From NCBI GenBank assembly GCA_964017235.1, contig OZ024938.1, positions 60,503,816 to 60,567,815 of the forward strand: a stretch of DNA of 64,000 nucleotides. Reading direction: 5' to 3'. The DNA is from Sabellastarte sp. h YS-2021 (taxonomy: Eukaryota; Annelida; Polychaeta; Sabellida; Sabellidae). Under the pieces are notes generated by a model. That model was not told the origin of the DNA. It worked only from the letters and a program-made list of their open reading frames with translations, and searched no databases. The translations under genes and the position numbers were made by a program. Positions 17,721 to 63,066 of the stretch are shown here, in pieces (position 1 is the stretch's first letter; the number at the start of each line of letters is the position of its first letter).

Positions 17721-18627
17721 ATTATGCTGACTGTAAAGATACAATACACTGTCTTATCCTGGTTACTTTGCCAGCAAGGCCGATCAAGCACACAGTAGCC
17801 AGATTGCAGAGGCGTACTTAGCCTCTTGCTATCATATCACATATTTTACATAATGTGTAAATTTCTTACCATTCACATTTCTATCATGTTGGTAAATGTT
17901 CTTGTAAGTGGTCAGGTGGATTACTGTAATACAGTTTTTGTACAGAAAACATAGCTAGAGTTTCATTGAGTTAAGAAATGCTTGTATCTAATTGTCTATC
18001 AATTAAAAATTAAAAAAAATCTTATTACCTTTTTCAATAGAAATGACACTGGTTGCCCATTCCACAGTGAATCAAGAACAACCTCCTAATATTTAAGTTA
18101 TACATTTTCGTAAATTACCTCAGCTGTCTGAGATGATAAATACCTGCAAACTCAGTTGAGGCAACAGGTCTTTGGTTTCTAGTGTCCATATCAACAAATA
18201 GGTTGGTAGCCAAAGATTTGCAGTTTGCTGCACCATCAGAATGGCGTAGATGACCCATTTAAAACATTTTTCTAAAAGGTCACCCTTTAAGATTTGCCTT
18301 TTTTCACAATTACCCGAAACAAACACACATGCACATACTCCACATCGGGTATACATTGTTTTTGATATAGACCATCTTGCTATCAGACTATTTTTTTGGA
18401 ATTGCAGTACCTGACAGGATATTCACTTCAACTGGGAGTAATATAAATTTTTGGTTAGATATTAACTTTTATGCTAACGAACCAGTAAGGTTCTTTACCT
18501 ATTTTTGATTTCACTATGAAAGTACAATCAAGACAAGGGTCTATGCTCTTAACCCCAAGGTTTTAACTGGGAATTTAAAATTCAAAATCAAAAATTTTTG
18601 GAAACAGATCCCCAATAACCTTTCAAT

Positions 18628-18670
18628 GGGAGCCTTAGTCGTGTGGTGTAACAGGGGCATAGTTGATACA
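18628..18670 (+). mobile_element. Solo right terminus of a Harbinger-family MITE
   Basis: GGGAGCCTTAGTCGTGTGGT is the right terminal sequence seen at 33.3 kb and 61.08 kb. Here it stands alone and faces the left border of the next element, making a palindrome of roughly 32-bp arms around a short spacer. Confidence 0.65.
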
Positions 18671-18673
18671 TAA

Positions 18674-19317
18674 TGCCCCTGTTCCACCACACAACTAAGG
18701 CTCCCGATTAAGGTATTTTGTGAATTACTTTCCTAAAAATGTTGAGTCCTAGACTGTCTGCTTGAGTGTAATTGGATCTGTTTAGGTCGGTATAAAAATC
18801 AAACATGTTTGATATTTTCACGACTGTAACCGATCCACTTTTGCCCTATCAACAAATATATCAGACTTCCTGAGACCTCCTCAGACCCAAATTTACACAA
18901 TCCTGGGTTGTCTGTGTTGTCAGGTCGGCTTTGTTTTTGCCCAGGAGGTCTGGACTTAATCCCAGATCCATCCCCGACCCATCATGGAAAAGAAAAAGCA
19001 AAAATCGGCCATAGATGTCTGAGGAAATCTGTTATTAGTCCTAGAAAGTCTGAGGAAGTCTCAGACCAGTCTGAGACCCAGTCGGTATATCCCCAACAGG
19101 ATCGGTGTTGAATCCTATCACAATCGTGGCTTAATCGCCTTTTAGTCAGTGAACGATTGTGAGTTGTCTGAGGAGGTCTGAGGGTTCCTGAGAACAATCA
19201 CAGAACTGGAGCCCGATTCCATTGGCCCCCCATTATTTATGTTTTTTTTGCACAGACTCTGGAGGATTAAGGGTCGCTGGACCAATTGGGGCTTTATCAC
19301 TTGGTGGAACAGTGGCA
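18674..19317 (-). mobile_element. Non-autonomous PIF/Harbinger MITE (644 bp)
   Basis: The ends are TGCCCCTGTTCCACC and GGTGGAACAGTGGCA, flanked by TAA at 18671-18673 and 19318-19320. This fits the 3-bp TWA duplication known for PIF/Harbinger. Orientation is reversed relative to the element at 55.6 kb. Subterminal GGTCTGAGG-like motifs and the palindrome ATCAAACATGTTTGAT (18798-18813) are shared with that element. It is more diverged than the copy at 32 kb. Confidence 0.75.
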
Positions 19318-20492: not shown

Positions 20493-23400
20493 GCTGCTGC
20501 TACTACTATTACTACTTCTAATAATGTTGTTTTATTATTGCTTGTTTACAGTTTCAGCTACATCATCGATGGAATGCAGGATGCTCATTACTCTTATAAT
20601 CCATGTACAGCCTTCTCCATAACTGTGCCATGCGAAAATATTGCGGTTAGGAAATGGCTTTTATTGCTGCATTTTCAACAATAAAATATAAATTCAATGC
20701 TGACAGTTTATCATCAAAAATAGTTGCATTCCCCTACGGAAAACCAAACCCAGTAACCATTTTTGGGAAACGTTTGAATGTCTGAATAACAATTCTGTAA
20801 AATAATCAGCAATGATTCAATGCTTGGTGCAAGTTTACTCACTCGTGTGTTTTGACAGAACAACTGCCACTAATCGGTGCAGTGTCAAAGTTTTAAAACC
20901 ATGCTAAAATTTACTCCATTTTATGGATATTTTCCATTCTCATTTCAATGAATGGGTAAAACAGCCTTTAGCTGTTAAAAATGTGCATAAAAATCTAAAT
21001 TTCTGCATGGCATGTAAGTCTCCATTAAACCTTGTTTTAGGCTTGCCAGGCGACTGGATCTGGGCCTATGTATGCCCTGGGAACACAGGACTCAGCTACA
21101 TTTGTAACAAATGAGAAGAATGAGCCAGTACTAGAATACAGAAGCACTACTGGCCCAACAGGCAGGTAATACACTAAATAAATCTTTTCAGAATTTTTTT
21201 CAGAAAACACAACAACATTGGTCTGTAGGATGCACTAAAATTTGTAGGGTAGTTAGTTCTAATTTAAATTATAATTGGACTTTTATAGCGCTTAATCTCC
21301 CCTATTCAAAGGGGACTCTTAGGCACAACAAAACAAAACAGTCAACCAATTTCAATATCCAGGGACAGAAAAGAGTCCAAGCACCACAGAGAACCTCAGG
21401 GGTGAGTAAGACTAAGGAGGGTATGCCTTAGTGTAAAGGTAGGTTTTGAGGCGTTTTCTGAAGGAGACAAGAGTCAGGAACAGCATTCCAGACTGTGGGA
21501 GCATCAAAAACAAAACTATAACCAAACTGTTTGACCGATTTATGGACTGAGGGTTGAAACAAGGAAATTACTACCATTCTGACTGCACCTGATACTGTAG
21601 GAACTGCTGTAGGAAGAGATGTATGCAAAATACTTGGGAAAACCAGTGTAGAGAAACTTATAAACAAGGGATGGCTGTTTTAAAGACTGAGCAATGTTCA
21701 ACAGGAAGCCAATGCAGTTTCTTACGAACAGGAGTTATACTAGTGTATCTACTGGTATTTGATATGAATCTAGCTGCACTGTTTTGGATACACTGTAATA
21801 TACGAAACTTGAACTGAGAGAGACTCCTGAAAAGTGAGTTACAATAATCCAACTTCTACTAACAAGAGCATGGGCCACAAGTACAGAAGCATCTTGAGTA
21901 AGAAACCGCCTGACATGTCTAAAATCACGGAGTTACAAAAAACAACTTATGCAGACATTCTGAACATGTTTGGACAAGGAAAAAATCAGAATTGAACCAC
22001 ACATCCAGATTCTTGACCGACTCAGTAGGGCAGAGAGGATTACCCAAGATGGTAGATAGATAATATGCTTTCAATTTGTCCCTCTGATTTTTAACCAAAT
22101 ACAATAAACTCAGTTTTATTCGAATTAAGTTTGAGTTTACTGGCTGACATCCACTCCTTTATATCATCCAGGCACCTGTTCAACTTTTGAAGGCAGGAGA
22201 TGAATTACTCTGGGATAGATGGATATAGACTTGAGTGTCATTCGCATTTAAAAATGAAACTTTACTCCTTTGTGTTTACCAATAACCAAACTAAGGGGGG
22301 TTGGATACAGAGAAAATAATAAAGGACCCAAGACAGAGCCTTGGGGCACACCAAACAGGAGTTTACAAAGATCAGAGAGAGTATAATCAATTTTTACCCC
22401 ACAGCCCTTAAAGGCTTGGTGGTATTGTTTTCACCCATGGTGTCCGGATTGGCGGGCGGGCGGGCGTCAGGGCGGGCGGGCGGGCGGTGGTAAAAAGTTT
22501 GTCCGGGCTGTATCTCAGAAACCGTAACGTGTAGGAAGTTGATACTTGGTAGGGACATTGGTTAGGGGGTGTAGGTGTGCAACGTCATGGTGTGACCTTG
22601 ATTTGACCTTTGACCTTGCCGTAGTGACCTTGAGGTTGAAAATCTTGTCCAGGCTATATCTTGGGAACCCTAAGGTGTAGGAAGTTGATACTTGGTAGGG
22701 ACATTGGTTAGGGGGTGTACGTGTGCAACGTCATGGTCTGACCTTGATTTGACCTTTGACCTTGCCGTAGTGACCTTGAGTTTGAAAATCTTGTCCGGGC
22801 TATATCTCGGGAACCGTAAGGTGTAGGAAGTTGATACTTAGTAGGGACATTGGTTAGGGGGTGTAGGTGTGCAACGTCATGGTGTGACCTTGATTTGACC
22901 TTTGACCTTGCCGTAGTGACCTTGACCTATAAAATCTAGTCCGGGCTATATCTCGGAAACCGTAAGGTGTAGGAAGTTGATACTTGGTAGGGATATTGGT
23001 TAGAGGGTGTAAGTGTGCAACGTCATTGTCTGACCTTGATTTGACCTTTGACCTTGCTGTAGTGACCTTGACCTATAAAATCTTGTCCAGGCTATATCTC
23101 GGAAACTGTAAGGTGTAGGAAGTTGATATTTGGTAGGGACATTGGTTAGGGGGTGTAGGTGTGCAACATCATGGTCTGACCTTGATTTGACCTTTGACCT
23201 TGCCGTAGTGACCTTGAGTTTGAAAATCTTGTCCGGGCTATATCTCAGAAACCGTAAGGTGTAGGAAGTTAATATTTGGAAGGTACATTGGTTAGAGGGG
23301 GTAGGTGTGCAACGTCATGGTCTGACCTTGATTTGACCTTTGACCTTGCCGTAGTAACCTTGACCTATAAAATCTTGTTCGGGCAATATCTTGGAAACCG

Positions 23401-26400
23401 TAAGGTGGAGGAAGTTGATACTTGGTAGGGACATTGGTTAGGGGGTGTAGGTGTGCAACGTCATGATGTGACCTTGATTTGACCTTTGACCTTGCCGTAG
23501 TGACCTTGAGTTTGAAAATCTTGTCCAGGCTATATCTTGGGAACCGTAAGGTGTAGGAAGTTGATACTTGGTAGGGACATTGGTTAGGGGGTGTAGGTGT
23601 GCAACGTCATGATGTGACCTTGATTTGACCTTTGACCTTGCTGTAGTGACCTTGAGTTTGAAAATCTTGTCCAGGCTATATCTTGGGAACCGTAAGGTGT
23701 AGGAAGTTGATACTTGGTAGGGACATTGGTTAGGGGGTGTAGGTGTGCAACGTCATGGTGTGACCTTGATTTGACCTTTGACCTTGCCGTAGTGACCTTG
23801 AGTTTGAAAATCTTGTCCGGGCTATATCTTGGGAACCGTAAGGTGTAGGAAGTTGATACTTAGTAGGGACATTGGTTAGGGGGTGTATTGGTGCAACGTC
23901 ATGGTGTGACCTTGATTTGACCTTTGACCTTGCCGTAGTTACCTTGACCTATAAAATCTTGTCCGGGCTATATCTCGGAAACCGTAAGGTGTAGGAAGTT
24001 GATACTTGGTAGGGATATTGGTTAGAGGGTGTAGGTGTGCAACGTCATGGTCTGACCTTGATTTGACCTTTGACCTTGCTGTAGTGACCTTGACCTATAA
24101 AATCTTGTCCAGGCTATATCTCAGAAACTGTAAGGTGTAGGAAGTTGATATTTGGTAGGGACATTGGTTAGGGGGTGTAGGTGTGCAACATCATGGTGTG
24201 ACCTTGATTTGACCTTTGACCTTGCCGTAGTGACCTTGAGTTTGAAAATGTTGTCCGGGATATATCTCAGAAACCGTAAGGTGTAGGAAGTTAATATTTG
24301 GTAGGGACATTGGTTAGGGGGGGGTAGGTGTGCAACGTCATGGTCTGACCTTGATTTGACCTTTGACCTTGCCGTAGTAACCTTGACCTATAAAATCTTG
24401 TTCGGGCTATATCTCGGAAACCGTAAGGTGGAGGAAGTTGATACTTAATAGGGACATTGATTAGGAGGTGTAGTTGTGCAACGTCATGATCTGACCTTGA
24501 TTTGACCTTTGACCTTGCCGTAGTGTCCTTGACCTATAAAATATTGTCCGGGCTATATCTCGGAAACCGTAAGGTGTAGGAAGTTGATACTTGGTAGGGA
24601 CATTGGTTAGGGGCTATAGGTGTGTATTATCATGGTGTCACCTTAATTTGACCTTTGACCTTGTCATAGTGACCTTGACCTTTAAAATCTTGTTGCACCT
24701 TTGGGTCTGTCTTTTGATGCAGATTAAGCACTGTTAAAGTCATATTAGAATTTATTAAGAATTTTACTTTCATAACTTCCCATTGTAAGAGATAGAATTT
24801 CATCAAGTGAGCCACATATTTTGCTCCAACACCACACATAAGCATCTCATTAAATGTATTACCACTTCTGTATGCGTGGTAATATTCAAAACATCTAAAC
24901 CATAATTCGGTCATGCAGATGTAGATAAAGAGTGTTGAATTTTAGTTTACCGATTAATGCTGTCATTTTGTTATTGAATTATCTTGTTTAATACTTCATG
25001 TTTACATGCATTATCTTTCTTTTAAACTTTATTTCTTCATTTAAACATTGTTTGGACCTTTATATAACTGACAGTGCTCTGAAAGTATCCTGAACTTTGT
25101 AATGGTACAGTACTTCTATATCTCATGGTGTTGAAAATATTTCCCTAGGCTGTGGGGTACGGGCATTTCTGATGCTATTTTTATTGACTGATAGCGTTCA
25201 GATAGGTAGGAAGTGAACCATTACAGAACAGAACCGCCAATTCTAAACCAGGTCTGAAGACAATGAAGAAGGGTGGAATGATCAATTGTATCAACTGCTG
25301 CTGAGAGATCGAGCAGTATCAGGGCAGTCGGTTTGCCTCTTGACAAAAATATGTGAACTTTATTTTTATAGAAAGAAGAGCTGTCTTAGTTGAGTAACCT
25401 GTTTTATATAGAAGACACAATTATATACAGTTGTTCAACGTTTTGCACTGTAATTCACCAGTCAATGGATCCAACCAACTACAAGCTTTCCAACCTGAGG
25501 TCAGACCAGGATTCATATTTCTAATGTCAGAGGATGGAGTCACATGTGTTACTACAACACCACCACAGCCCCTGCATTCCAACTGAAACATCTGCCTTAA
25601 TTCTGCTATCAATTTGGGACATAGCACTCCTTTGTACTAGTTAGTCTACAACTGTGTTGTGATTAAGCTTCAACTTCTGTAGATCCCACTATTTTGTCTC
25701 CAGAATTTCGTTGTGCACTCTCCTGGTGTACTACTCGCGTTTCTGATTGCTTTGCAGCTAGTGCAACAAAATATCGACCTTGTTAATGTGATAAAGAAGG
25801 TTCATGAGGTGGCCTACTGATAAGTAATTTTGGCTGTCACTGATCTGTGGGTTCAACAAGTGACATTATTAAGGGGCTGTCCCACATTGACCCTGGCCGT
25901 TGAACTGGATATAACATCCTAACAATGACATCTATATATGTAGTTACAGTATATATAAACATGAATGAAACATTATTTTACACTCTGTGACAGTTGGTGA
26001 CTGTTGCTTCAAGGGGTCTCTTTGGGAATGCAAAATATTTAGGGCTGTCTCACATTAATCTGAAAATAAAACCCCACATAATCTTCATTGAAAGGATAAA
26101 TGTTACCTTTGGAATTGGTTGAGTGTCCAGTACTGATTCACATGACCTTATACCACAAATCCACTGTCGCAGGGTCTGTCTCTTGGCCAGCAACATATTT
26201 GAAACCTTTTCACTAGTGAAACTTAAGATTGTAATACTTGTTCCAGGTACACTGTATGGTATAGTCATCTTCATTCATGATGATTATATTTTTGTACATG
26301 CCATTCGGGAAGTTTTCTCATCATATCACAAATGTGGAATTTTTGGAGCATAACTTTTTAAAAGTGAAACATAGCCTTGATCTTGGCTGATACACTATCT

Positions 26401-31047: not shown

Positions 31048-34000
31048 TCAAGTGGTTTTCTCGGTTACTTCAATGGCATCTACCATGGCTACAATGCCAT
31101 TCCAAATCTCTTCAGAGGAAGGTTGGATCTCACTTGGGTCAACAATAAAACTATTCCCTCTCAGCTCTGGAGTGAATGCATACTTAATGCCAGCTGCACC
31201 TTTGGCATGATCCTGAAGAACCCCCGATGAAGCATCTGAAATAGAGCGTATATTTCTAGTTATGAATTATTATGATTGGTTATACGGTATATCCTAGAAC
31301 ATTTGTGAAGTTTCTACATCTATAATTACCTCTGCATAAAAGGTCATGTTTTTGGTGGCTGGAGTTTGTATATCTGTTTGTTTGCAAAATAAATTGAAAA
31401 GTTTTGGACAGATTATATGAATTTTTTTTAGGAAATGTCGATAATGGCAGAAGGAATAGACAATTCAATTTAGGTGATGATCTAGATCACCACCTGGAGT
31501 CAGAAATTTTTAAACAATTTTTGATCATTGCACTCACAATCAATATTAGAGATGTTGGGTCTTGGTGAAGGTATACACTCTCTAAGTACTCTTGTTTAAT
31601 TCATGTTGTACTTATTAAGGGCCATGGCGGTGCAGTGGTAGCACACACTCGCCTCCAACCTTTGAGGTCTGTGGTTCAAACCCTGGACCCTATGTGGGAA
31701 AGATGGTAGTTGCTTACCGATGGTCAGCCGTTTACAGTACAGAACCTTGACTAACTGCATGTATTGGTTTTCTCTGCCCATCAAATTACCCTTTGTGATA
31801 TGACCTATACAAAGCTGAAAATGATGTTAAACCCCAAATAAATGAATATTGTACTTATTGACTTTACATGGCGCCGTGTTGGTGCAGCAGTAATGCCCTT
31901 GTTCCACCAAAGGATTAAGCCCCGATCCTGTCGGCGACCCTTAATCGTGGGTAGTCTTGGAAAAAATGGAAAAAAAATTGACCAATGGGGTGGAAGACAG
32001 AATCGGTGTGAAGGTCTGGGATTAACTACAGATCGGCCTCAGGACGCCCCAGGAGGCCCCAGACAGTCCCTAACTGGTCTGGGACTAAGAACAGACTAAG
32101 CCATTTTTCTGGTAGGTTTGAACCACGATCCTGTCGTAGACAAACCGACTGGGTCCCAGGACGCCTCAGGCCTCCTGGGACTAAGCCCCGACTAACCCAG
32201 GATTAAGTCCCGACCCCACAAGGTGTCCTGAGGCGTCAACAGGCGTCCCCAGACCGAGATAGCCGATTTTTGCTTTGCAATGGGACTAAGGGTCGCAGGA
32301 AGCCTGGGACTAATGTGGGTGTTCCACCACACGACTAAGGCTCCCGATTAAGGGTTTTTGAGGGTCGGTTTCAAAAATATGCTTAGTCTCAGGCTTCCTG
32401 TAAGGGTCGGTTGTGGTCGGTTGAGGCCGTGTGAGAAATCAAACATGTTTGATATTTCTCCCGACCCCAACCGATTATTTTTTCCCGCCATAAACAAAAT
32501 GTCCAGTCCCAGGCTTCCTCAGGCCTCCTCAGATCAAATTTACACAGTCCTATGCTGTCCCACGCCGCCTGCGACCCTTAGTCGCCGACCCTTAGTCCCA
32601 GACCCTCTATACCTTATGCCCTTGTTCCACCAAAGGATTAAGCCCCGATCCTGTCGGCGACCCTTAATCGTGGGTAGTCTTGGAAAAAATGGAAAAAAAA
32701 TTGACCAATGGGGTGGAAGACAGAATCGGTGTGAAGGTCTGGGATTAACTACAGATCGGCCTCAGGACGCCCCAGGAGGCCCCAGACAGTCCCTAACTGG
32801 TCTGGGACTAAGAACAGACTAAGCCATTTTTCTGGTAGGTTTGAACCACGATCCTGTCGTAGACAAACCGACTGGGTCCCAGGACGCCTCAGGCCTCCTG
32901 GGACTAAGCCCCGACTAACCCAGGATTAAGTCCCGACCCCACAAGGTGTCCTGAGGCGTCAACAGGCGTCCCCAGACCGAGATAGCCGATTTTTGCTTTG
33001 CAATGGGACTAAGGGTCGCAGGAAGCCTGGGACTAAGGTATAGAGGGTCTGGGACTAAGGGTCGGCGACTAAGGGTCGCAGGCGGCGTGGGACAGCATAG
33101 GACTGTGTAAATTTGATCTGAGGAGGCCTGAGGAAGCCTGGGACTGGACATTTTGTTTATGGCGGGAAAAAATAATCGGTTGGGGTCGGGAGAAATATCA
33201 AACATGTTTGATTTCTCACACGGCCTCAACCGACCACAACCGACCCTTACAGGAAGCCTGGGACTAAGCATATTTTTGAAACCGACCCTCAAAAACCCTT
33301 AATCGGGAGCCTTAGTCGTGTGGTGGAACACCCACATTACATACTCACCCCCCACCTCTGAGATCAGACTTTGGATTCTTGTCTGACCGTAAGTGGGAAA
33401 GCTGGTAGTGGCTTGCTATTAGTTGGTGGTATACAGAACATTGTCCAACTGGATAAACTGGGTTCCTCTGCCCATCTAACTACCGGTCACGATATAGTTG
33501 ATACAGAGGAATTGGGATTCAAAATAGGTGTTGACTTATATGGCTAAATTCTTCTGTTTTTGATCTGTTACGTTACCGGGATGTGTGAGAACCATTTTCC
33601 TTGTGCAAAATTCTGAGATTTTGCACTGAGACATATGGAGTAGAAATTACATTATCATTCCTTGAAAAACACGAGAAAAAGGTTGATTAATTTGATTTTA
33701 TGTGGTCCATTTATATTTCATATTTAAATCAGTAGACATTTGCAGTACTATACATAAGAAAAAACATAGTTATTAAGTGGGATTCTCGAAAGAGCTCGGG
33801 CTTCTACGGATTACTTTTTTTGTCTCCAGACTTTCATCAATTGTGGCGCAGTGTGATGAGTATTTGTCTTCTCACTGAAGTTAAGCGGCAATGAGCTATG
33901 TTAGTACTTGGATGGGTGACCGTCTCAGTTCTAGACCAGCTGTGGGATGTGTCTGAGTTGGAATTTCTTTGTGTCCCCAGACTTTCGTAAATTCTAGTCC

Positions 34001-53600: not shown

Positions 53601-56600
53601 CTGTTGAGCAACGCATGGTATTTAAGACAGCCACACTTGTTTACAAGTTTCTTCACGCAGGTTTTCCTAGGTATTTTGCGCCATATCTTTCTTCCTACAG
53701 CAGTTTGTATAGCACCAGGCTCAGCCAAAGTGGTGGCAATTTCCTTGTCCTTCCAAAGTTCTACCCTTCTGTTCATAAATCTGTCAAGAAGTTTATTAAT
53801 AGTTTTGCTTTTGATGCTCCCACTGTTTGGAATGCTCTTCCAGATGAGATTCATGCCTCTCCATCCTTGGCCTCTTTCAGAAAGCAGCTTAAAACCTACC
53901 TGTACAGCAAAGCATATCACCTTAGGCAAAATCATCCCCTGGTGTCCTCCATGGTGTTTGACCCCTCTTCTGTCTCTAGATATTGAAATTTGGTCTACTG
54001 CTTTTTCGTTTTGTTGCGCCTTAGAGTCCTCTTGTATGGGGAGATTAAGTGCTAAAAAAGTCCAATTTGAAGTTTTTATTAATTAATGGGCCAGAATTTG
54101 GAGTTGGAATCACAGGCTGATCTGAAGGTCCAGGTTAATTAGATAGAGAAAAAGCAATATTTTTTTCCTATTTTTATAAATATTAGAATACTATGTGGTA
54201 CAACGTTAAAGGCATTACATTTTTCAGGGACAGAAAGTAGTCAAGCATCATAAAAAACAACTGCAGAAGTCTAAGGTGGGCAAGCTTCTTCACTTTAGCT
54301 ATATTTATGAAATTATGCATATTACATATACATTCAGAAATTCTAGTCAGCTGTTCATATATTGTAAATGTCACACTTATATGTGCCCTCTTTTCATTTA
54401 TATATACAGGCCTCAATTTGACATTTGATTTCTTGGCCCTCAATCTGCGGGCTTATGTTCAAATGCAGATAGTGGTCCCACACGAGCTTTACTGATGGCA
54501 TCTCCTGCTATGTATGAGCTTAGTTGGTGAAGTAGATCAATACATTATCTTTGACATTTGTCATTGAAATTTATTAGGCAAGACAAATACCAGATATAAG
54601 CAAAGATCAGTTACCATTACCTGGGCATAGGTGTTGTAGTTGTCATACTGAAATGTAAAGGCCTTTTCTGACTGAGATGTGAGTTTTGACTTTCCTGCTA
54701 TTGCAATCTTCTCTTGGTCTATTACCCTAGAAGACCAACAATTAAGCTTTATTGTTACGTTTTCAATGCACAATATAAGTCTCATAGTTGAAAGTGATGA
54801 TTGATAATTATGTATAGGATAGGACTAAGATTAGGACTGTTAGTAAATACCGCCCCTGGTAAGTTCTCATAATTTATGTATCAACCAGATTATGCCCCCG
54901 ACTGCATTATTGGGGCAATCAGTATGCAAACTCTGACAGAAGAATTCGATGGCTTGGTGGTCAGTAAGCATGGAATCTAATCACATTTTTCACCTCTGTG
55001 TGGGTTAGACTCCCACAAGTGGCAATGCTGATCCTGATTTTTGGACAGGTAGTAAAACCCTCACTTGTGTAAAGGGGGTGCCTTATACAAACGAAATTTC
55101 GTTATTAATTGAATATTTTTTTTTTTTTATTTATTTATTTTTAACATATTTGATAGTATACAGTGACAATACATAAGGTTCTTATACTGACAAATTATGA
55201 AGAAAACAAGAAAATAACAGATGTTTTCATGAGAACATTTGACATAAGCTCATACATACATTTCACAAAAAATTAACCATCAACTGTATTATTAGAAACA
55301 ATGAAAAAACAAATAGAAAAAAGTGACATCAGACCTGTACACACAGGAAATTTAAACTGACAGTGTAAATGAAAGTTTTCACACTATATTGAAAATGTTA
55401 ATCCAATGGTCCCACATATTCATCAAGCTTGTTTCGTTCAAATTCACCTTGGCTAATGCCCTCTGTTCATCAAAAATCTTTCTTATTTCTTTTTGTAAAA
55501 AGTAAATGTTTAACATGAAGCCCTTTTTTGAACACCAATAAATATATTTTTTGGTTACTAGTATAACAAAATTTATAGGCCAATAATCTTTGTTTCTCTC
55601 AATATATCCAAGTATTTTCATGGAATCCGTTATCCTAATGCCCCTGTTCCACCAAAGGATTAAGCCCCGATCCTGTCGGCGACCCTTAATCGTGCACAGT
55701 CGGTTGAAAAAAGACAAAAATGGGCGGGAATACTGGGTCGGTACTGAAGTCTGGGATTAAGAACAGATCATCCCCAGGACGCCTCAGGACACCTCAGGAC
55801 GCCTCAGGCGGCCGCAGACAGTCCCCGACTGGTCTGGGACTAAGAACCGACTAAGCCAGTTTTCGGGTCGGTTTCAACCACGATCCTGTCGGACACAAAC
55901 CGACTGGGTCCCAGGACGCCTCAGGCCTCCTGGGACTAAGAGCCGACTAACACACGATTAACTACCGGCGTCCTCAGGCGTCCTCAGGCCTCCTCAGGCC
56001 TCCCCAGACCACGATCCCCGATTATTGTTTTGCAAAGTTGCTGGATTTTCTGGGTATATATATATAAAATTTGCGATCTAATCATCATTGCTTTTCTAGG
56101 AACACACCAGGATGCCACCTTTTAATGGAAGACAGATTCAACAACAACTTAGGGCTTTCTTGGTTTTTATTCAGTTACAAATAATCATGTATTTCCATTT
56201 TTTACGTCAAGCACAGCAACCACCACCACCACCACCAGCACCACCAGCACCCATACAGAGACCTAGAAGAAGGCACAACATGTGGGTCAGGCCATGGCTT
56301 CTGCAGAGAGAGGAGAGGGGGGCCTACCACAACATTATGGCTGATCTGTATGCCACAGACATTCCAGGATTCACCAACTACATGAGGATGACCCCAGAAT
56401 TCTTTGAAATGATGAAGACCAGACTGGAACCACGTCTAGCCAGGCAGGCCACCAACTACAGAGCTCCTATCAGTGTTGGGGAGAAGTTAGCCCTCACCAT
56501 CAGATATCTGGCCACTGGAGAGTCATACACATCATTATCCTGTCAGTTCAGGGTTGGCAGATCCACCATTTCCAAGTTTCTACCAGAGGTCTGCAGGGCC

Positions 56601-59600
56601 ATCCAGGATGAGTTCACCAGAGAGTACCTCAAATGTCCTACTACTCCAGATGAGTGGAAAGAACTGGAAAGGGAATTCAGGATCAGGTGGAATGTTCCAC
56701 ATGCCCTGGGAGCCCTGGATGGAAAGCATGTGGCCCTGAAGAAACCCAAGAACTCTGGAGCCCTCTACCACAACTACAAGGGGTTCTTTTCCATTGTCAT
56801 GTTGGCCTTGGTAGATGGGCAGTACAAATTCAGATGGGTGGATGTGGGTACAGAAGGGTCTTGCTCAGATGCCCAGATATTTAATGCCTCTCAGATGAAG
56901 AGGAGGATTGAAGATGGCAGGATAGGCTTCCCTGACCCAGCTCCTATAACACAGGGTGGTAGAGATGTCCCCTACTTCATTTTGGCAGATGATGCCTTTG
57001 CCCTGAAGACCTGGCTCATGAAACCCTATGGCAGAAGGCTGTTAACAAGGGAGGAAAGGATTGCCAACTACAGAATATCAAGGGGCAGGAGAGTTGTGGA
57101 GAACGCTTTTGGCATCCTTGTGTCAAGATTTAGAGTCATGAGGACCACCATTGAACTACCCCCAGAAACAGTTAGAGAAGTGGTCATGACCTGTGTGGTT
57201 CTGCACAATATACTCAGAAGCCAGTATCAAGGTCAACCTGCTGGTCAGCAGCCTGGGGGTGATGATGATGATGATGATGTGCCTGGTGATTGTGGATTGA
57301 TTGGTGGTGCTGCTGGTGGTGGCCAAGACAGAAACCCTGCTAGAGAGGCCAAAAGACAGAGGGATTACCTGAAGGACTACTTCAATAATGAGGGAGCAGT
57401 GGCCTGGCAAGATGGCAGAATATAAGTCCTGTTGCAGTAAACAGTCCTTTTCAGGACTAACTATAACAGTCCTTTTCAGGACTACCAAATATTCCAAAAA
57501 CAATTAATCAGCTATGTGGACAAACAGACAAACCCCATGCCAAACATAACTTGTTGAGACGGACAAACAGACAAACCCCATGCCAAACATAACTTGTTGA
57601 GACGGACAAACAGACAAACCCCATGCCAAACATAACCTGTCGAGACGTACAAACAGACAAACCCCATGCCAAACATAACTTGTTGAGACGTACAAACAGA
57701 CAAACCCCATGCCAAACATAACTTGTTGAGACGGACAAACAGACAAACCCCATGCCAAACATAACTTGTACAGACGGACAAACAGACAAACCCCATGCCA
57801 AACATAACTTGTTCAGACAGACAAACAGACAAACCCCATGCCAAACATAACTTGTTGAGACGGACAAACAGACAAACCCCATGCCAAACATAACTTGTTG
57901 AGACGGACAAACAGACAAACCCCATGCCAAACATAACCTGTCGAGACGTACAAACAGACAAACCCCATGCCAAACATAACTTGTTGAGACGTACAAACAG
58001 ACAAACCCCATGCCAAACATAACTTGTTGAGACGTACAAACAGACAAACCCCATGCCAAACATAACTTGTTGAGACGGACAAACAGACAAACCCCATGCC
58101 AAACATAACTTGTACAGACGGACAAACAGACAAACCCCATGCCAAACATAACTTGTTCAGACAGACAAACAGACAAACCCCATGCCAAACATAACTTGTT
58201 CAGACAGACAAACAGACAAACCCCATGCCAAACATAACTTGTTCAGACAGACAAACAGACAAACCCCATGCCAAACATAACTTGTTCAGACAGACAAACA
58301 GACAAACACAACTTACTCACCCAACAAACAGACAAACCCACTGTTAAACAAAAGCGAAACACAAAGTGACACATAATATCCTAAATTGAATAATTATTTT
58401 ATATATTTTCAAATCCACACCATAATTTAAACATTTTTCTTTTTTCATGGCTGGGAAACTTATTTGTAGCAGAAATTTTTTTATGGAAATATTCAATTTT
58501 AAATATTCATTTCTAATCACAAAAATTTGGAAAATATAACCATGGAACTAGTTTTGCTTTCAATAATGGGGGATTGTGTTTGCTAAATAGTTTGTCAGTT
58601 CGTTGGCATGGGTTCTATCTACTTTTGGGTTTGGGTGTTTGTTGGTTGGTGGTTACTGGGGTTGGGTTTTTTTGGGGTAGTTGGGTATTAGGTTTGGTAC
58701 TGGGTTTGTTATTTGGGGGTTATGTTTGGTATTGGGTTTGTCTGTTTGTGGGTTGGTAAGTATGTAATTATGCCTTTTAACTCTAGGGAAGGTGCAAGTG
58801 TTGGACTTTTCAATTACAGATTTTAAACTATCCCATGGATTTTAATCTAAAAATGGGCTGATTAATGGCCATATTGGGAGTTACTTTTAATATTTTTTTA
58901 TGTGGCCTTTTTGGTTATGTGTAGTACCATGGGTTATTTGTTTCATGTTTGGGGTGGTGTAAGTGTTGGACTTTAATTTTTTTTTTCTTGTGATAAGTAT
59001 TTGTACTGAAATTTTTTGTTTTGGGAGGGGAATTGGAAGAACACGTAGCTGAATAATTGTTTTTGGAAGAATTGGTGGCCCTGAAAAGGGCCTGGCAGGT
59101 CAAAGACCCGCCCTGACTGGATGGCTACTGAGGAGGCTGCTGTTGAGGCGGTGCTGAAGTGGTGATAGTAAAGAGCTGCTGCTGCGGTTGTTGCTGCTGC
59201 TGCTGAGGCTGCTCGACGATCTGTGTTGATGTCAGATCTGGTAGCTGGCTTAAGATTCCACTCAGATTGTGTCTGCTCCCTTCGTCCTGTACAGTTAGGA
59301 CAGATGTAGGGTTGCTGAAGCCAATGGGGCTTGGTGTATAGTACACAAAACTGCTGCTAGCTGCTGCTTGAGTGGAACTTGACGCCTGTGGAGTGGTTGT
59401 TGGCAGTAGGCCGACCCTCTGGGACTCCGTGGTAACAGTGGCTGATCTTCTGGGCAATGGCTGACGTCTGCGGTTACTCTTAATATTTTCGATATCTCTG
59501 AATATCTTGCCCTTTAATTCTTCAAATTCTTCTTGAGTCATCTTTTCGGCCTCTGATGCCACGTAGTCAAAGAAGGGCTGCCTGTCTGACTTCTGATGCA

Positions 59601-62031
59601 GAAAACCTGAGATAAGTGTCCTCATCTGCTCAAAGTGTTCGAGAATCTTGGAGTCTGTAGTTGAAACGGGTGTTGATGTAATGATGGACTGACTCCTCTC
59701 CCTCAGGACACTGGACTCGAGGTGTTCTGTGTCAGTAGTTGACCCACGTGATTCGTCCTGTTTGCTGGTATTTGGACTGGCCTCAAAACCTGAACTTCTA
59801 TTGGCCCCCTTTCTTCTGATGTGGGTTTTAAGAAAACCCATCTGTTGGTAGACCCAGGACTGTCTCTTGGTCATCTCCCTCGGGGCTTGGCCAGATTGGA
59901 GCTTAGACACCTTCTCACATCAAAGGGCTGGAGCTTAAGTTCTGCAGATATTTCTGCCCAGAGAGCCTCTCTTCTATTCCTGTCGTGGAAACGTGAATGT
60001 TCCTTGTCATACAGTTCAGGGTGCAGCTTGACGAATTCTACAATGGAAACTTCATCACTGTCTGTAAAAGTGGCACACACCCTGGCTCTCTTGGCTGAAG
60101 AATGGCACTCCGGATCTTCCTCACACCTCTCTTCTTCTTCTGCCACAGCTTCCCCAATAGCTGGATCTTCCTGAATCTCCTCCTCCTCTCTCCTCTCACT
60201 TCCTTCTTCTGTAATAACTTCACTCCTCTCCTCTACTTGACTTTCCTTCTCCCTCTCATCCATCTTTTTCCTTCCTCTCTTCCCTCCTTTCTCTTTTCTC
60301 ATGATCCAGTCGACAAAATAATAAAAAAATAGTAAAATGTGTCTCCTAACTGTGAAATTTGCCTTAAGCTCAAGTATATAAAATGTAAAATAAAAATTGA
60401 AAACCCCTACAAATCAGTGACACACGTCTCTCAGTAGCCAAACAGTCAGTAACAATGACAAAGTGTGCGCGGTCGCTTATATAGTCCCAGACCTGCTCAT
60501 TGCCTCGTTTTAATTTCCAACGCGCGGAAAACAGTCGGTTCTTAATCGGTTGTTAGTCCCAGGCCGCCTGGGGCGTCCTCAGGCTGCCGCAGACTGAAAA
60601 TGTGTGGTCCCAGGCGTCCTGGGGAGGCCGGTTTGGATCGGTTAGGGTCGGTTACCCTTAGTCGGTTCTTAGTCCCAGACCTTGATTTTTGGGTCGCAGG
60701 ACACCGCAGACGGTCTGAGGCTTCCGGGGACTAATGAAACCGACTCACTTTCAGACGCATGAAATTCATACGCATCATATTTGAGTCTGGGATTAAGAAC
60801 CGGCCGCCTGGGACTAAGCTACGGAGGTCTGGGACTAAGGGTCGCAGGACGCCTGGGACAACAACCGACTCTGTAAATTTGGGTCTGAGGAGGCCTGAGG
60901 ACGCCTGGGACTGGACATTTTGTTGACGGCGGGAAATATGAATCGGTTGTAGTCGTGTGAAATATCAAACATGTTTGATTTTTCACACGGCCCCAACCGA
61001 CCACAACCGACCCTTACAGAAGGTCTGGGACTAAGCAAATATTTCAAACCGACCCCCAAAAACCCTTAATCGGGAGCCTTAGTCGTGTGGTGGAACACCC
61101 ACATTAATTTTATCCCAACTTTATTGGAGATCCACGATTCTATATTCTGCCAAATAGGTATAACTTTAGAACAATGACAAAAAAGATGAAAAATTGTTTC
61201 TTTTTGGTCCTTACAAAACACACACACATCACTCTCTGTCGATTTAATTTTTCTAAGAAAATACCTAGTTGGTAAAATGCCAAAAATTATTCTGTACTGA
61301 AACCATATTATTGAATTATCTTTAATCGACTTAAAACAACTATGAAATACATTTTTCCATGCTTCATCATCATGTTTGCTTAACATATTTTCCCATTTAT
61401 TTCTCATGGGTAATTCAACATTTTTACAATTGTTAAATAGAATTCTGTAATAAATTTTACATCCTTTTTCTGGTAATAAAAACTGCCTGATGGAAAGAGG
61501 GACATAAGGTCTCTGAATGTGAAAGTTTCCATTTTTTTTATATTTTGCAATAAATTTATTTACAAGGGTATTCACTCTGTGATATTCTAAAAAATTGATT
61601 TTCAACCCAAATGTCTTTTCAATTTTCTGAAGTGTCATTATATCTCCAGTTGACTCAACGATATCTCCAATCAATGAAATCCCTCAAATTAATTGAATAT
61701 GCATAGACACACATGCTGGTAATGAAATGAGACAGAAGGCAATGCTGTTTGTTTAATGAGACATAGCAATGTGCATGTAATTATGTCCCAACTGTTTTGT
61801 CTCTTAATCAATGTAAAGTGACATAAGGTCAAAGTTGCTTATTACAAAAACACACTTTTGATTTACATATACATGTCTTGACATCAGTAGATCTACTACT
61901 TACTTTTGAACATCATCAATTTCAGTCCACCAGGTCAAATCAGCATTTTGAAGCCATTCTTCTGTTTTGCCCAATGATGCTGCAGGGACAGCAAATGAAA
62001 CCTTTCCTTCTCCAACATTCCAATGATCTAA
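44622..62031 (-). CDS. M14A zinc procarboxypeptidase 2 (5' end not found)
   Basis: Exons, 5' to 3': 62031-61904, 54726-54621, 52832-52725, 51862-51702, 50923-50872, 49571-49481, 47858-47757, 46463-46342, 45474-45390, 44827-44622. Phases match copy 1 throughout. Exons 161+52 equal its 213-nt exon and 102+122 its 224-nt exon, so copy 2 has two extra introns. Two upstream exons (signal peptide and propeptide start) are expected, but nothing convincing was seen before 64000. Propeptide marks are [10 protein letters not shown] and WWTEIDDVQ. Catalytic marks are HCREW (zinc), [24 protein letters not shown] (third zinc ligand), [11 protein letters not shown] (Tyr; Gln at the S1' position) and LELR (catalytic Glu). 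All key residues are kept, so the enzyme is probably active and secreted. The first intron shown holds a 6.6-kb nested transposon block. Confidence 0.9.
46464..46650 (-). pseudogene. Tandem exon-border relics in a copy-2-specific intron
   Basis: A unit of about 64 bp that includes the start of exon 46463-46342 is repeated about three more times upstream (at roughly 46504, 46568 and 46633). On the minus strand the relics read ILTWMS-stop and LTWVS-stop where the exon reads ILAWVSLHS. At least one relic keeps an acceptor-like TTTAG|GG. They are duplicated, decayed pieces of coding exon inside the intron that copy 1 lacks. Confidence 0.7.
49895..50110 (+). repeat. SINE family A (old, degenerate)
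   Basis: The blocks CACTCTTAGGTCTTGACTTT, CTGGTCGTAAGTGTGAAAAC, CTGACTGTTTACAG and CATGATATGACCTATAC follow the family A order with many changes. Confidence 0.5.
50460..50568. mobile_element. Short fold-back element, ATATTCATGAAAGG termini
   Basis: GGAACCATATTCATGAAAGG is mirrored by CCTTTCATGAATACGGACC over 109 bp. It is related to the element at 35555-35642. Confidence 0.7.
53257..54085 (+). mobile_element. CR1/L2-like LINE, 5'-truncated, C-terminal ORF2 intact
   Basis: An ORF runs from 53327 to 53986 (219 residues). It encodes the end of a non-LTR reverse transcriptase: [58 protein letters not shown] and [15 protein letters not shown]. The thumb and C-terminal region are present but RT motifs A to D are absent, so it cannot move. 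The open frame implies a fairly recent insertion. The 3' end (GGGGAGATTAAGTGC to AAAGTCCAATTTGAAG) matches the families at 21.3 and 38.4 kb. It lies in an intron of carboxypeptidase 2 on the opposite strand. Confidence 0.85.
54948..55075 (+). repeat. SINE family C
   Basis: The copy has GATGGCTTGGTGGTCAGTAA (A-box-like), CACCTCTGTGTGGGTTAGAC and CCCACAAGTGGCAATGCTGA. The 3' end is shortened to GTAAAACCCTCAC. Confidence 0.6.
55104..55116. repeat. Target-site duplication of the L1-like LINE, left copy
   Basis: ATTAATTGAATAT is repeated exactly at 61688-61700. It directly borders the poly(T) that is the minus-strand poly(A) tail of the LINE. Confidence 0.88.
56112..57425 (+). CDS. Harbinger transposase (DDE_Tnp_4 type), intact, 437 aa
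   Basis: A Pro run (residues 37-46) follows the N-terminus. Residues 64-160 contain a helical region with [15 protein letters not shown], the helix-turn-helix-like segment seen in HARBI1 proteins. The nuclease part has [10 protein letters not shown] (D203), [12 protein letters not shown] (D253), YFILADDAF and RRVVENAFG (E330), the expected D-D-E arrangement. The C-terminus is Asp-rich (a GAT repeat near 57258) and then basic. It would cut and paste the element after import to the nucleus with the partner protein. The single exon has no stop or frameshift. It could also be a domesticated HARBI1-like gene, but the flanking TIRs argue for a transposon. Confidence 0.93.
   Translation: MPPFNGRQIQQQLRAFLVFIQLQIIMYFHFLRQAQQPPPPPPAPPAPIQRPRRRHNMWVRPWLLQREERGAYHNIMADLYATDIPGFTNYMRMTPEFFEMMKTRLEPRLARQATNYRAPISVGEKLALTIRYLATGESYTSLSCQFRVGRSTISKFLPEVCRAIQDEFTREYLKCPTTPDEWKELEREFRIRWNVPHALGALDGKHVALKKPKNSGALYHNYKGFFSIVMLALVDGQYKFRWVDVGTEGSCSDAQIFNASQMKRRIEDGRIGFPDPAPITQGGRDVPYFILADDAFALKTWLMKPYGRRLLTREERIANYRISRGRRVVENAFGILVSRFRVMRTTIELPPETVREVVMTCVVLHNILRSQYQGQPAGQQPGGDDDDDDVPGDCGLIGGAAGGGQDRNPAREAKRQRDYLKDYFNNEGAVAWQDGRI
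57510..58312. repeat. 43-bp minisatellite inside the Harbinger element
   Basis: About 18-19 units of GACAAACCCCATGCCAAAC-containing 43-bp repeats. Variant joints (GTTGAGACGG, GTCGAGACGT, GTACAGACGG, GTTCAGACAG) recur in the same order twice, so a block of seven to eight units was duplicated. Four GTTCAGACAG units end the array. Because 43 is not a multiple of three and no stop occurs on the minus strand, all three minus frames stay open for long stretches. Confidence 0.93.
58321..59110. other. Non-coding interior of the Harbinger element
   Basis: AT-rich at first, then a T/G-rich stretch (58560-58760) made of GGTTTGG and TTGGGTT words. No gene is supported. It should contain the 3' UTRs of the two convergent transposon genes. 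Confidence 0.5.
59125..60302 (-). pseudogene. Harbinger partner protein (MADF/Myb-like), frameshifted
   Basis: From ATG at 60302 the frame gives a basic start (KKMDERE; GKRGRKK, likely a nuclear localisation signal), an acidic stretch and the first part of a MADF/Myb-like domain ([38 protein letters not shown]). It ends in a stop at 59871. The frame at 59910-59125 carries the rest ([32 protein letters not shown]), then a Ser/Thr-rich region and a C-terminal Gln run. The middle helix with the conserved Trp and LR is missing at the joint near 59905, so a short deletion broke both frame and domain. In PIF/Harbinger elements this protein helps bring the transposase to DNA. An intron is unlikely because conserved residues are gone. 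Confidence 0.78.
60964..60979. promoter_or_regulatory. Conserved 16-bp palindrome in the right subterminal region
   Basis: ATCAAACATGTTTGAT is a perfect palindrome. It also occurs at 18798-18813, 32438-32453 and 33197-33212, always in the right half of a family member and in the same setting. It is a candidate binding site for a transposon protein; this is inference. Confidence 0.55.
61688..61700. repeat. Target-site duplication of the L1-like LINE, right copy
   Basis: ATTAATTGAATAT, identical to 55104-55116, marks the truncated 5' border of the LINE. Confidence 0.88.
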
Positions 62032-62259: not shown

Positions 62260-63066
62260 TGGCCATACTGTAGCATTTCTTCTATAGTGCTGTGATTTAT
62301 TATACCCCAGATACTTCTTATTTAAAAAACCTACGCTATTTCTCTGCTTCACAAGATTCATCTTTATGCTTGTAACAGTCGGGAGCAGGTCATTACTTTT
62401 TTTTCTAAGCAGCTCTAGCAAGGCGCAAACTTCTAGCTATCACTTTTTAATTTTTTTTGTCTCTGGACTTTCATGAATTGTGGCATAGCATGTTAAGTAA
62501 GGCAGCAATGGGTTACGTTAGTACTTGGGTGGGTGACCGCCACAGTGCACTATCCCTATCTCCGATGGCCTTGCAGCTTGCGCAAGTCAACTGAAACCCC
62601 TATGGACCTTGTTTAAACTATAGAATTGTTTTATTTAAGATATATGTATGATGTATGTAAGATATATGTATGGCCATACTGTAGCATTTCTTCTAAAGTG
62701 CTGTGATTTATTATACCCCAGATACTTCTTATTTAAAAAACCTACGCTATTTCTCTGCTTCACAAGATTCATCTTTATGCTTGTAACAGTCGGGAGCAGG
62801 TCATTACTTTTTTTTCTAAGCAGCTCTAGCAAGGCGCAAACTTCTAGCTATCACTTTTTAATTTTTTTTGTCTCTGGACTTTCATGAATTGTGGCATAGC
62901 ATGTTAAGTAAGGCAGCAATGGGTTACGTTAGTACTTGGGTGGGTGACCGCCACAGTGCACTATCCCTATCTCCGATGGCCTTGCAGCTTGCGCAAGTCA
63001 ACTGAAACCCCTATGGACCTTGTTTAAACTATAGAATTGTTTTATTTAAGATATATGTATGATGTG
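62260..63066 (+). repeat. Direct duplication of about 396 bp carrying a 5S-derived SINE
   Basis: Copies lie at 62260-62655 and 62671-63066, offset 411 bp, and look nearly identical (one A/T change seen near 62285 and 62696). Each contains the 5S-like SINE (GTCTCTGGACTTTCATGAAT; GTTAGTACTTGGGTGGGTGA; GATGGCCTTGCAGCTTGCGC) at about 62456-62608 and 62867-63019. The shared minus-strand ORF of about 50 residues has no recognisable domain and is probably not a gene. Confidence 0.88.

Follow-up and report, generated by a model that had tools for sequence, protein, structure and literature searches.

A dimer of a young 720-bp PIF/Harbinger-type MITE, possibly made from one element by aberrant transposition

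How can two copies of a MITE come to lie side by side with their halves in the same places, but with one half turned round exactly at the borders of the family's target site? The question is raised by a locus at positions 31894 to 33336 of the window, the stretch of 64,000 nucleotides of Sabellastarte DNA that was analysed. Read from left to right, the locus begins after an outer TAA (31891-31893) with the L half of unit A (31894-32310, forward), which starts with the L terminus TGCCCTTGTTCCACCA and is followed by the internal TAA of the element, position 418-420 (32311-32313, forward). This TAA is joined to the terminus TGTGGGTGTTCCACCA of an inverted R half, R' (32314-32613, minus strand), which points toward the L half of unit A and so forms the first new junction. 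At the second new junction a TTA (32614-32616, minus strand), the duplicate of the target TAA as seen on the opposite strand, is joined to the L terminus of unit B. Unit B then runs without disturbance through its L half (32617-33033), an intact internal TAA (33034-33036) and its R half (33037-33336), all forward, to an outer TTA (33337-33339) whose central base does not match that of the outer TAA on the left.

Units A (31894-32613) and B (32617-33336) are 720 bp each and consist of 417 bp of L, the TAA and 300 bp of R. Their L halves are identical (417/417), and their R halves, in opposite orientation, agree at 299 of 300 positions with a sole difference at 32389. The layout given in the earlier note, with 417 bp on the left, TAA, 300 bp on the right, TTA and opposed R halves, was therefore correct to the base. 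An inverted-repeat search found arms of 311 nt (32311-32621 and 33029-33339) that are 99% complementary, a length and identity that exclude a chance origin, and the minimum-energy fold predicted for 32311-33339 as single-stranded DNA pairs the R arms over nearly their full length, in agreement with the 300-bp-arm hairpin expected earlier. All 23 single copies among the best-scoring matches elsewhere in the genome (L025-L047) have the order L-TAA-R, so unit B has the normal layout and unit A is the one that was altered. At both breakpoints an exact transposon end is joined to the element's own internal TAA, which is duplicated, so that the new internal junctions of the dimer carry TAA/TAA. To speak of a half inverted between TAA and TTA borders describes only the outcome; the junctions themselves correspond to the insertion of an R end and an L end into a TAA of the element itself.

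The repeat unit is a 720-bp non-autonomous MITE of PIF/Harbinger type with TWA target sites. We searched the genome (1.786 Gb in 647 contigs) with the dimer and obtained 2688 first-look candidates, 40 of which were scored, giving 121 matches. The 23 single copies are 720 bp long and differ from their own consensus at 0 to 4 sites; apart from its rearrangement, the window locus is an ordinary member of this family. The L and R termini mostly adjoin TTA or TAA, and the inverted terminal repeats consist, at both ends, of TG, four bases that differ and then TGTTCCACCA. Among 62 complete copies, including two end pairs from the composite loci L062 and L066 that were both scored as matching, 38 are flanked by TTA/TTA or TAA/TAA, 19 by TWA on both sides with a mismatched centre and 5 by other triplets. 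No second full-length dimer of 1443 bp was present among the other 120 of the 121 matches (40 of 2688 candidates scored), and the idea that the dimer is mobile as a unit was rejected because none of these matches covers its full length. We also rejected the R half as a mobile 300-bp element in its own right, because its inner end lacks terminus-like sequence and all 23 singles are L-TAA-R. A search of the window for an empty site showed that the flanks match related repeats, with no copy spanning the insertion point. A relative of the MITE, shorter and more diverged, occurs on the minus strand of the window at 18596-19317, with terminus-like sequence in both directions near its end at 18.6-18.7 kb.

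A longer element with both termini of the MITE lies at 55639-61103 (forward, 5465 bp), flanked by TAA and TTA. It is 79.7% identical to the MITE over element positions 1-387 and 87.8% over positions 433-720. It contains an open frame of 441 codons from stop to stop (56100-57425, forward) with a DDE_Tnp_4 transposase domain (PF13359, E 4.6e-32), an open frame on the minus strand (59871-60413) with a MADF/Myb-like DNA-binding domain (PF10545, E 1.9e-7), and a third open frame with no domain match. A second, MADF/Myb-like protein is typical of Harbinger elements, and the two-gene plan is a hallmark of the family; together with the TWA target, this plan places the MITE in PIF/Harbinger. The coding relative is a candidate for the source of the transposase or for an older kin of that source; with common ends that are 80-88% identical, it may represent a cousin of the element that really acts as helper. 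An array of 18 copies of a 43-bp unit lies inside it (57518-58307).

Are the two units neighbours that inserted separately, or do they descend from one element? Units A and B both carry the variants 221A, 345A, 346A and 471G, each of which is present in 0 of the 23 singles, as well as the commoner 115G and 479G, and they differ from each other only at element position 645. Not all four variants are restricted to the window, as 345A alone is also found in one nested copy at L017; the bit scores of the 40 scored candidates suggest that no other match among them has all of the window's variants. The common private variants imply that both units come from one element or have been homogenised along their whole length. 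The earlier note had described a pair of MITEs with one half flipped, a view we replace on the strength of these variants: the dimer appears to be one element that was duplicated and inverted, and not two neighbouring insertions.

We then compared the junctions of the dimer with those of nested insertions elsewhere in the genome. At loci of the order L R' L' R, one whole element sits in reverse orientation inside another at an internal TAA, and in most cases a TAA borders it at either end. The sites used are mostly at element positions 394-396, 418-420, 440-442 and 454-456, all within GACTAAG, so the internal GACTAA sites, including 394-396 and the 418-420 of the window, are recurrent targets for R ends; most of these loci were picked by a pattern that demands this site and orientation, and they do not give the share of other sites or orientations. 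The R terminus joined to GGGACTAA, with at most 2 mismatches, gave 74 matches, versus 1 for the pattern read backwards. We inspected 59 of the 74, including L014 and L016, and classified 52 junction rows. An inverted R was followed by its own inverted L in 27 rows, two of which represent the same locus (L060/L061) and 10 of which have no recognisable host L beside the junction. The partner L was unrecognised in 24 rows, mostly with a diverged R of about 88%, and these R copies probably belong to another subfamily. Only one row, that of the window (L062), has a forward L after the inverted R. In total, 75 of 81 element-in-element junctions were reversed, a count from loci chosen mostly by the reversed-junction pattern and hence not a fair test of orientation. 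Two loci have a more complex structure. L017 (501-3726) is a nested array with head-to-tail repeats of a block of about 1.24 kb (L R' L' and part of a host R), which probably arose by unequal exchange between L copies of the nested elements, and L015 (504-3369) is a cluster of whole and partial copies inserted mutually, with breaks that include a TTA at element position 48-50.

A second rearranged locus, L018, has the order L R L' (396 to 1) L (397-417) R and is therefore the mirror form (L R L' R) of the window dimer. The same locus was read from the other strand as L066, one of the 27 rows with an inverted L after the inverted R; our script had labelled it as unflipped, and we reclassified it by hand, its host R being on the far side. 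With a sequence this close to the consensus, the two units of L018 are indistinguishable from two independent young copies and can show no private sharing.

We propose that the dimer arose from one element, a young 720-bp MITE of PIF/Harbinger type, by aberrant (alternative) transposition, and give this reading a probability of about 0.5. After replication, two identical copies a-L-R-b would lie side by side, as they do on sister chromatids. The transposase would pair the R end of copy 1 with the L end of copy 2 and cut both, and the exact termini at 32314 and 32617 point to these two ends as the ones that were cut. Both ends would then be strand-transferred into the TAA at 418-420 of copy 1 through a target cut with a 3-bp stagger; an attack of both on this internal TAA is what the junctions and the duplicated TAA suggest. 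The R end would join the TAA on the L side, which reverses the R of copy 1; the L end of copy 2 would join the TAA on the R side, with copy 2 and its right flank following. The product, reached in a single step, would be a-L-TAA-R'-TTA-L-TAA-R-b. When we applied this rule to unit B and both flanks from the window, it predicted unit A and the two junctions with one mismatch. The mirror rule, applied to the family consensus and L018's own flanks with the TAA at 394-396 of the second copy as target, predicted L018, again with one mismatch. The reading is based on the order of the halves, the exact ends, the TAA at both junctions, the private variants, the mirror locus and the use of internal TAA sites as targets of nested insertions. 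From these we infer that the transposase acted in one step, and we presume its timing and that the partners were sister chromatids as opposed to homologues or a transient tandem dimer. Neither the window nor 104 loci, a biased sample, contained a head-to-tail, head-to-head or tail-to-tail junction; with no head-to-tail junction, the tandem-dimer version, a reversed-ends transposition with the same product, has no visible intermediate.

The same sequence could also arise in two steps, and the junctions therefore do not decide between the routes. A sister or homologous copy would first insert in reverse into the TAA at 418-420 of its twin, giving L R' L' R, and homologous recombination between the R arms would later flip the L between them; at L018, the recombination would involve the L arms instead. 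Nests of the order L R' L' R are indeed common (18 measurable loci) and use the same TAA sites or ones nearby, flipping a computed nest yields the predicted product exactly, and the R arms are identical at 299 of 300 positions. On the other hand, this route requires a rare insertion of an element into itself followed by a flip. In each of the 18 measurable ordinary reversed nests, at least 6 substitutions separate the insert from its host, the closest being L061 (a tandem copy, 6), L019 (9) and L063 (14). The 18 comprise 15 loci (with L060/L061 counted once and L066 left out) plus L014, L016 and L019, which were judged by the separate differences of host and insert to the consensus; L100 and L101, outside this count, are further unflipped nests in which host and insert have clearly different identities. 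Self-nests thus made up 0 of the 18 unflipped nests, although they should be about as common as flipped ones, with the reservation that the counts are small and that flipping may depend on arm identity. The units of the rearranged loci, in contrast, differ by 0-1 substitutions (2 of 2: the window and L018). Two loci drawn at random from 20 would be the two most similar ones once in 190 draws, a figure calculated post hoc for an association that involves two rearranged loci only. We consider the two-step route the main alternative and a serious one, though less likely than the single step. The earlier note had suggested a transposase-mediated event and not random breakage, and here the exact ends, the duplicated internal TAA and the use of the same sites by nested insertions speak for the transposase; a second step without it, by recombination between the R arms, may have followed.

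An error of assembly is improbable. The true locus would then be a single unit or an ordinary reversed nest in which the assembler had turned the part between identical arms, and 300-bp arms with 99.7% identity are known to be hazardous; but such an error must also account for the common private variants and the one difference between the units, related structures are resolved by the assembly, as the mirror form at L018 and the many nests of divergent units show, and the whole dimer measures only 1.44 kb. Less probable still is template switching during replication, or abortive gap repair after excision, in which R would have been copied backwards with a restart at the L end. The available part of a report on Medicago (PMC2213677) favours abortive gap repair as the origin of its rearranged PIF/Harbinger elements, but both junctions consist of exactly a terminus and a duplicated TWA, and template switching would have no reason to favour such points, either in the window or at L018. 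Least probable of all are two separate insertions next to each other, of which one had a half randomly inverted between the 3-bp TAA and TTA repeats that do form the borders, since four private variants common to both units show that these are not independent, repeats of three bases alone do not direct inversion and the breakpoints are transposon ends.

The mismatch between the outer TAA and TTA of the dimer is not peculiar to this locus. A combination of TTA and TAA flanks 19 of the 62 complete copies, the bodies of which are mostly nearly identical, and we therefore rejected an exchange of flanks as its explanation. Centre-mismatched triplets in the window include both 31891-31893/33337-33339 around the dimer and 55636-55638/61104-61106 around the coding relative. 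Among the young singles the fraction is 7 of 23, and with only 0-4 changes per 720 positions in their bodies, this is far above what later mutation would produce. In nests with a known target, one side was changed at the central base. It is possible that, on excision, the central base of the old site travels with the element to the new one; for rice mPing, non-matching TSDs have been built on purpose, and excision was proposed, in the part of the work available to us, to leave 5' overhangs derived from the TSD (PMC4561436). Other repeats in the window are a satellite-like array at 22499-24693 (15 copies of a 146-bp unit, 91% matches) and a tandem duplication at 62260-63065 (411 bp, 2.0 copies, 99% matches).

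What would the favoured reading mean beyond this locus? We tentatively suggest, at somewhat less than even odds, that PIF/Harbinger transposase performs hybrid-end transposition (between sister chromatids or with reversed ends) into its own internal TAA, leaving dimers L R' L R and mirror forms L R L' R that can be counted in genomes. Two mirror products in one genome suggest that this transposase, too, is capable of alternative transposition, and the many young, nearly identical MITE copies make such events countable. If so, self-rearranged dimers would be a fossil record of hybrid-end events and would also seed palindromes, the window locus being one route by which a MITE can make a palindrome with 300-bp arms. 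If recombination made the dimers, the same loci would instead report how often short inverted repeats flip. In the literature searched, mostly titles and abstracts, we found no experiment on alternative transposition by PIF/Harbinger and no hybrid-end product.

Several known systems share parts of this picture. In the doubleDs of maize, one element is inserted in reverse into its twin; the window dimer differs in that its inner L again reads forward. The accessible parts of two reports (PMC3744419, PMC8225341) document alternative or non-standard transposition for Ac/Ds, P, impala and Sleeping Beauty. According to the same sources, the maize Ac/Ds transposase carries out reversed-ends as well as sister-chromatid transposition, and where inversion breakpoints have new TSDs directly at the transposon termini, these are taken as a sign of alternative transposition by Ac (PMC8225341). 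Like these events, the dimer would pair the ends of two copies and shows an inversion or inverted duplication whose termini directly adjoin new TSDs (TAA at 32311-32313 and TTA at 32614-32616); such TSDs are equally expected for an ordinary nest that was later flipped. The private variants indicate ends from two copies of the same element in the window, and L018 is uninformative in this respect. Ac/Ds has an 8-bp TSD and involves large flanking segments, whereas here the TSD is 3 bp and the target lies inside the MITE itself. Hybrid element insertion of the Drosophila P element, named in part of PMC3744419, is similar in that the ends of two copies act together in one aberrant transposition, and differs in that P belongs to another transposase family. 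Within PIF/Harbinger, the elements of Medicago include internal inversions and nested insertions, for which the sections consulted propose abortive gap repair (PMC2213677), and Tourist-like or PIF/Harbinger MITEs nested in one another were described by Jiang and Wessler in 2001, as cited in the accessible text of PMC3695323. The family described here resembles the latter in its 3-bp TWA duplication, short inverted termini, non-autonomous nature and members inserted into one another, and is unlike them in that two loci are rearranged nests with one half turned and the units in the window appear to come from the same element. Examples of nested MITEs, of PIF/Harbinger MITEs and of alternative transposition exist already; new would be to have them combined, in a PIF/Harbinger element that was rearranged into itself through hybrid ends.
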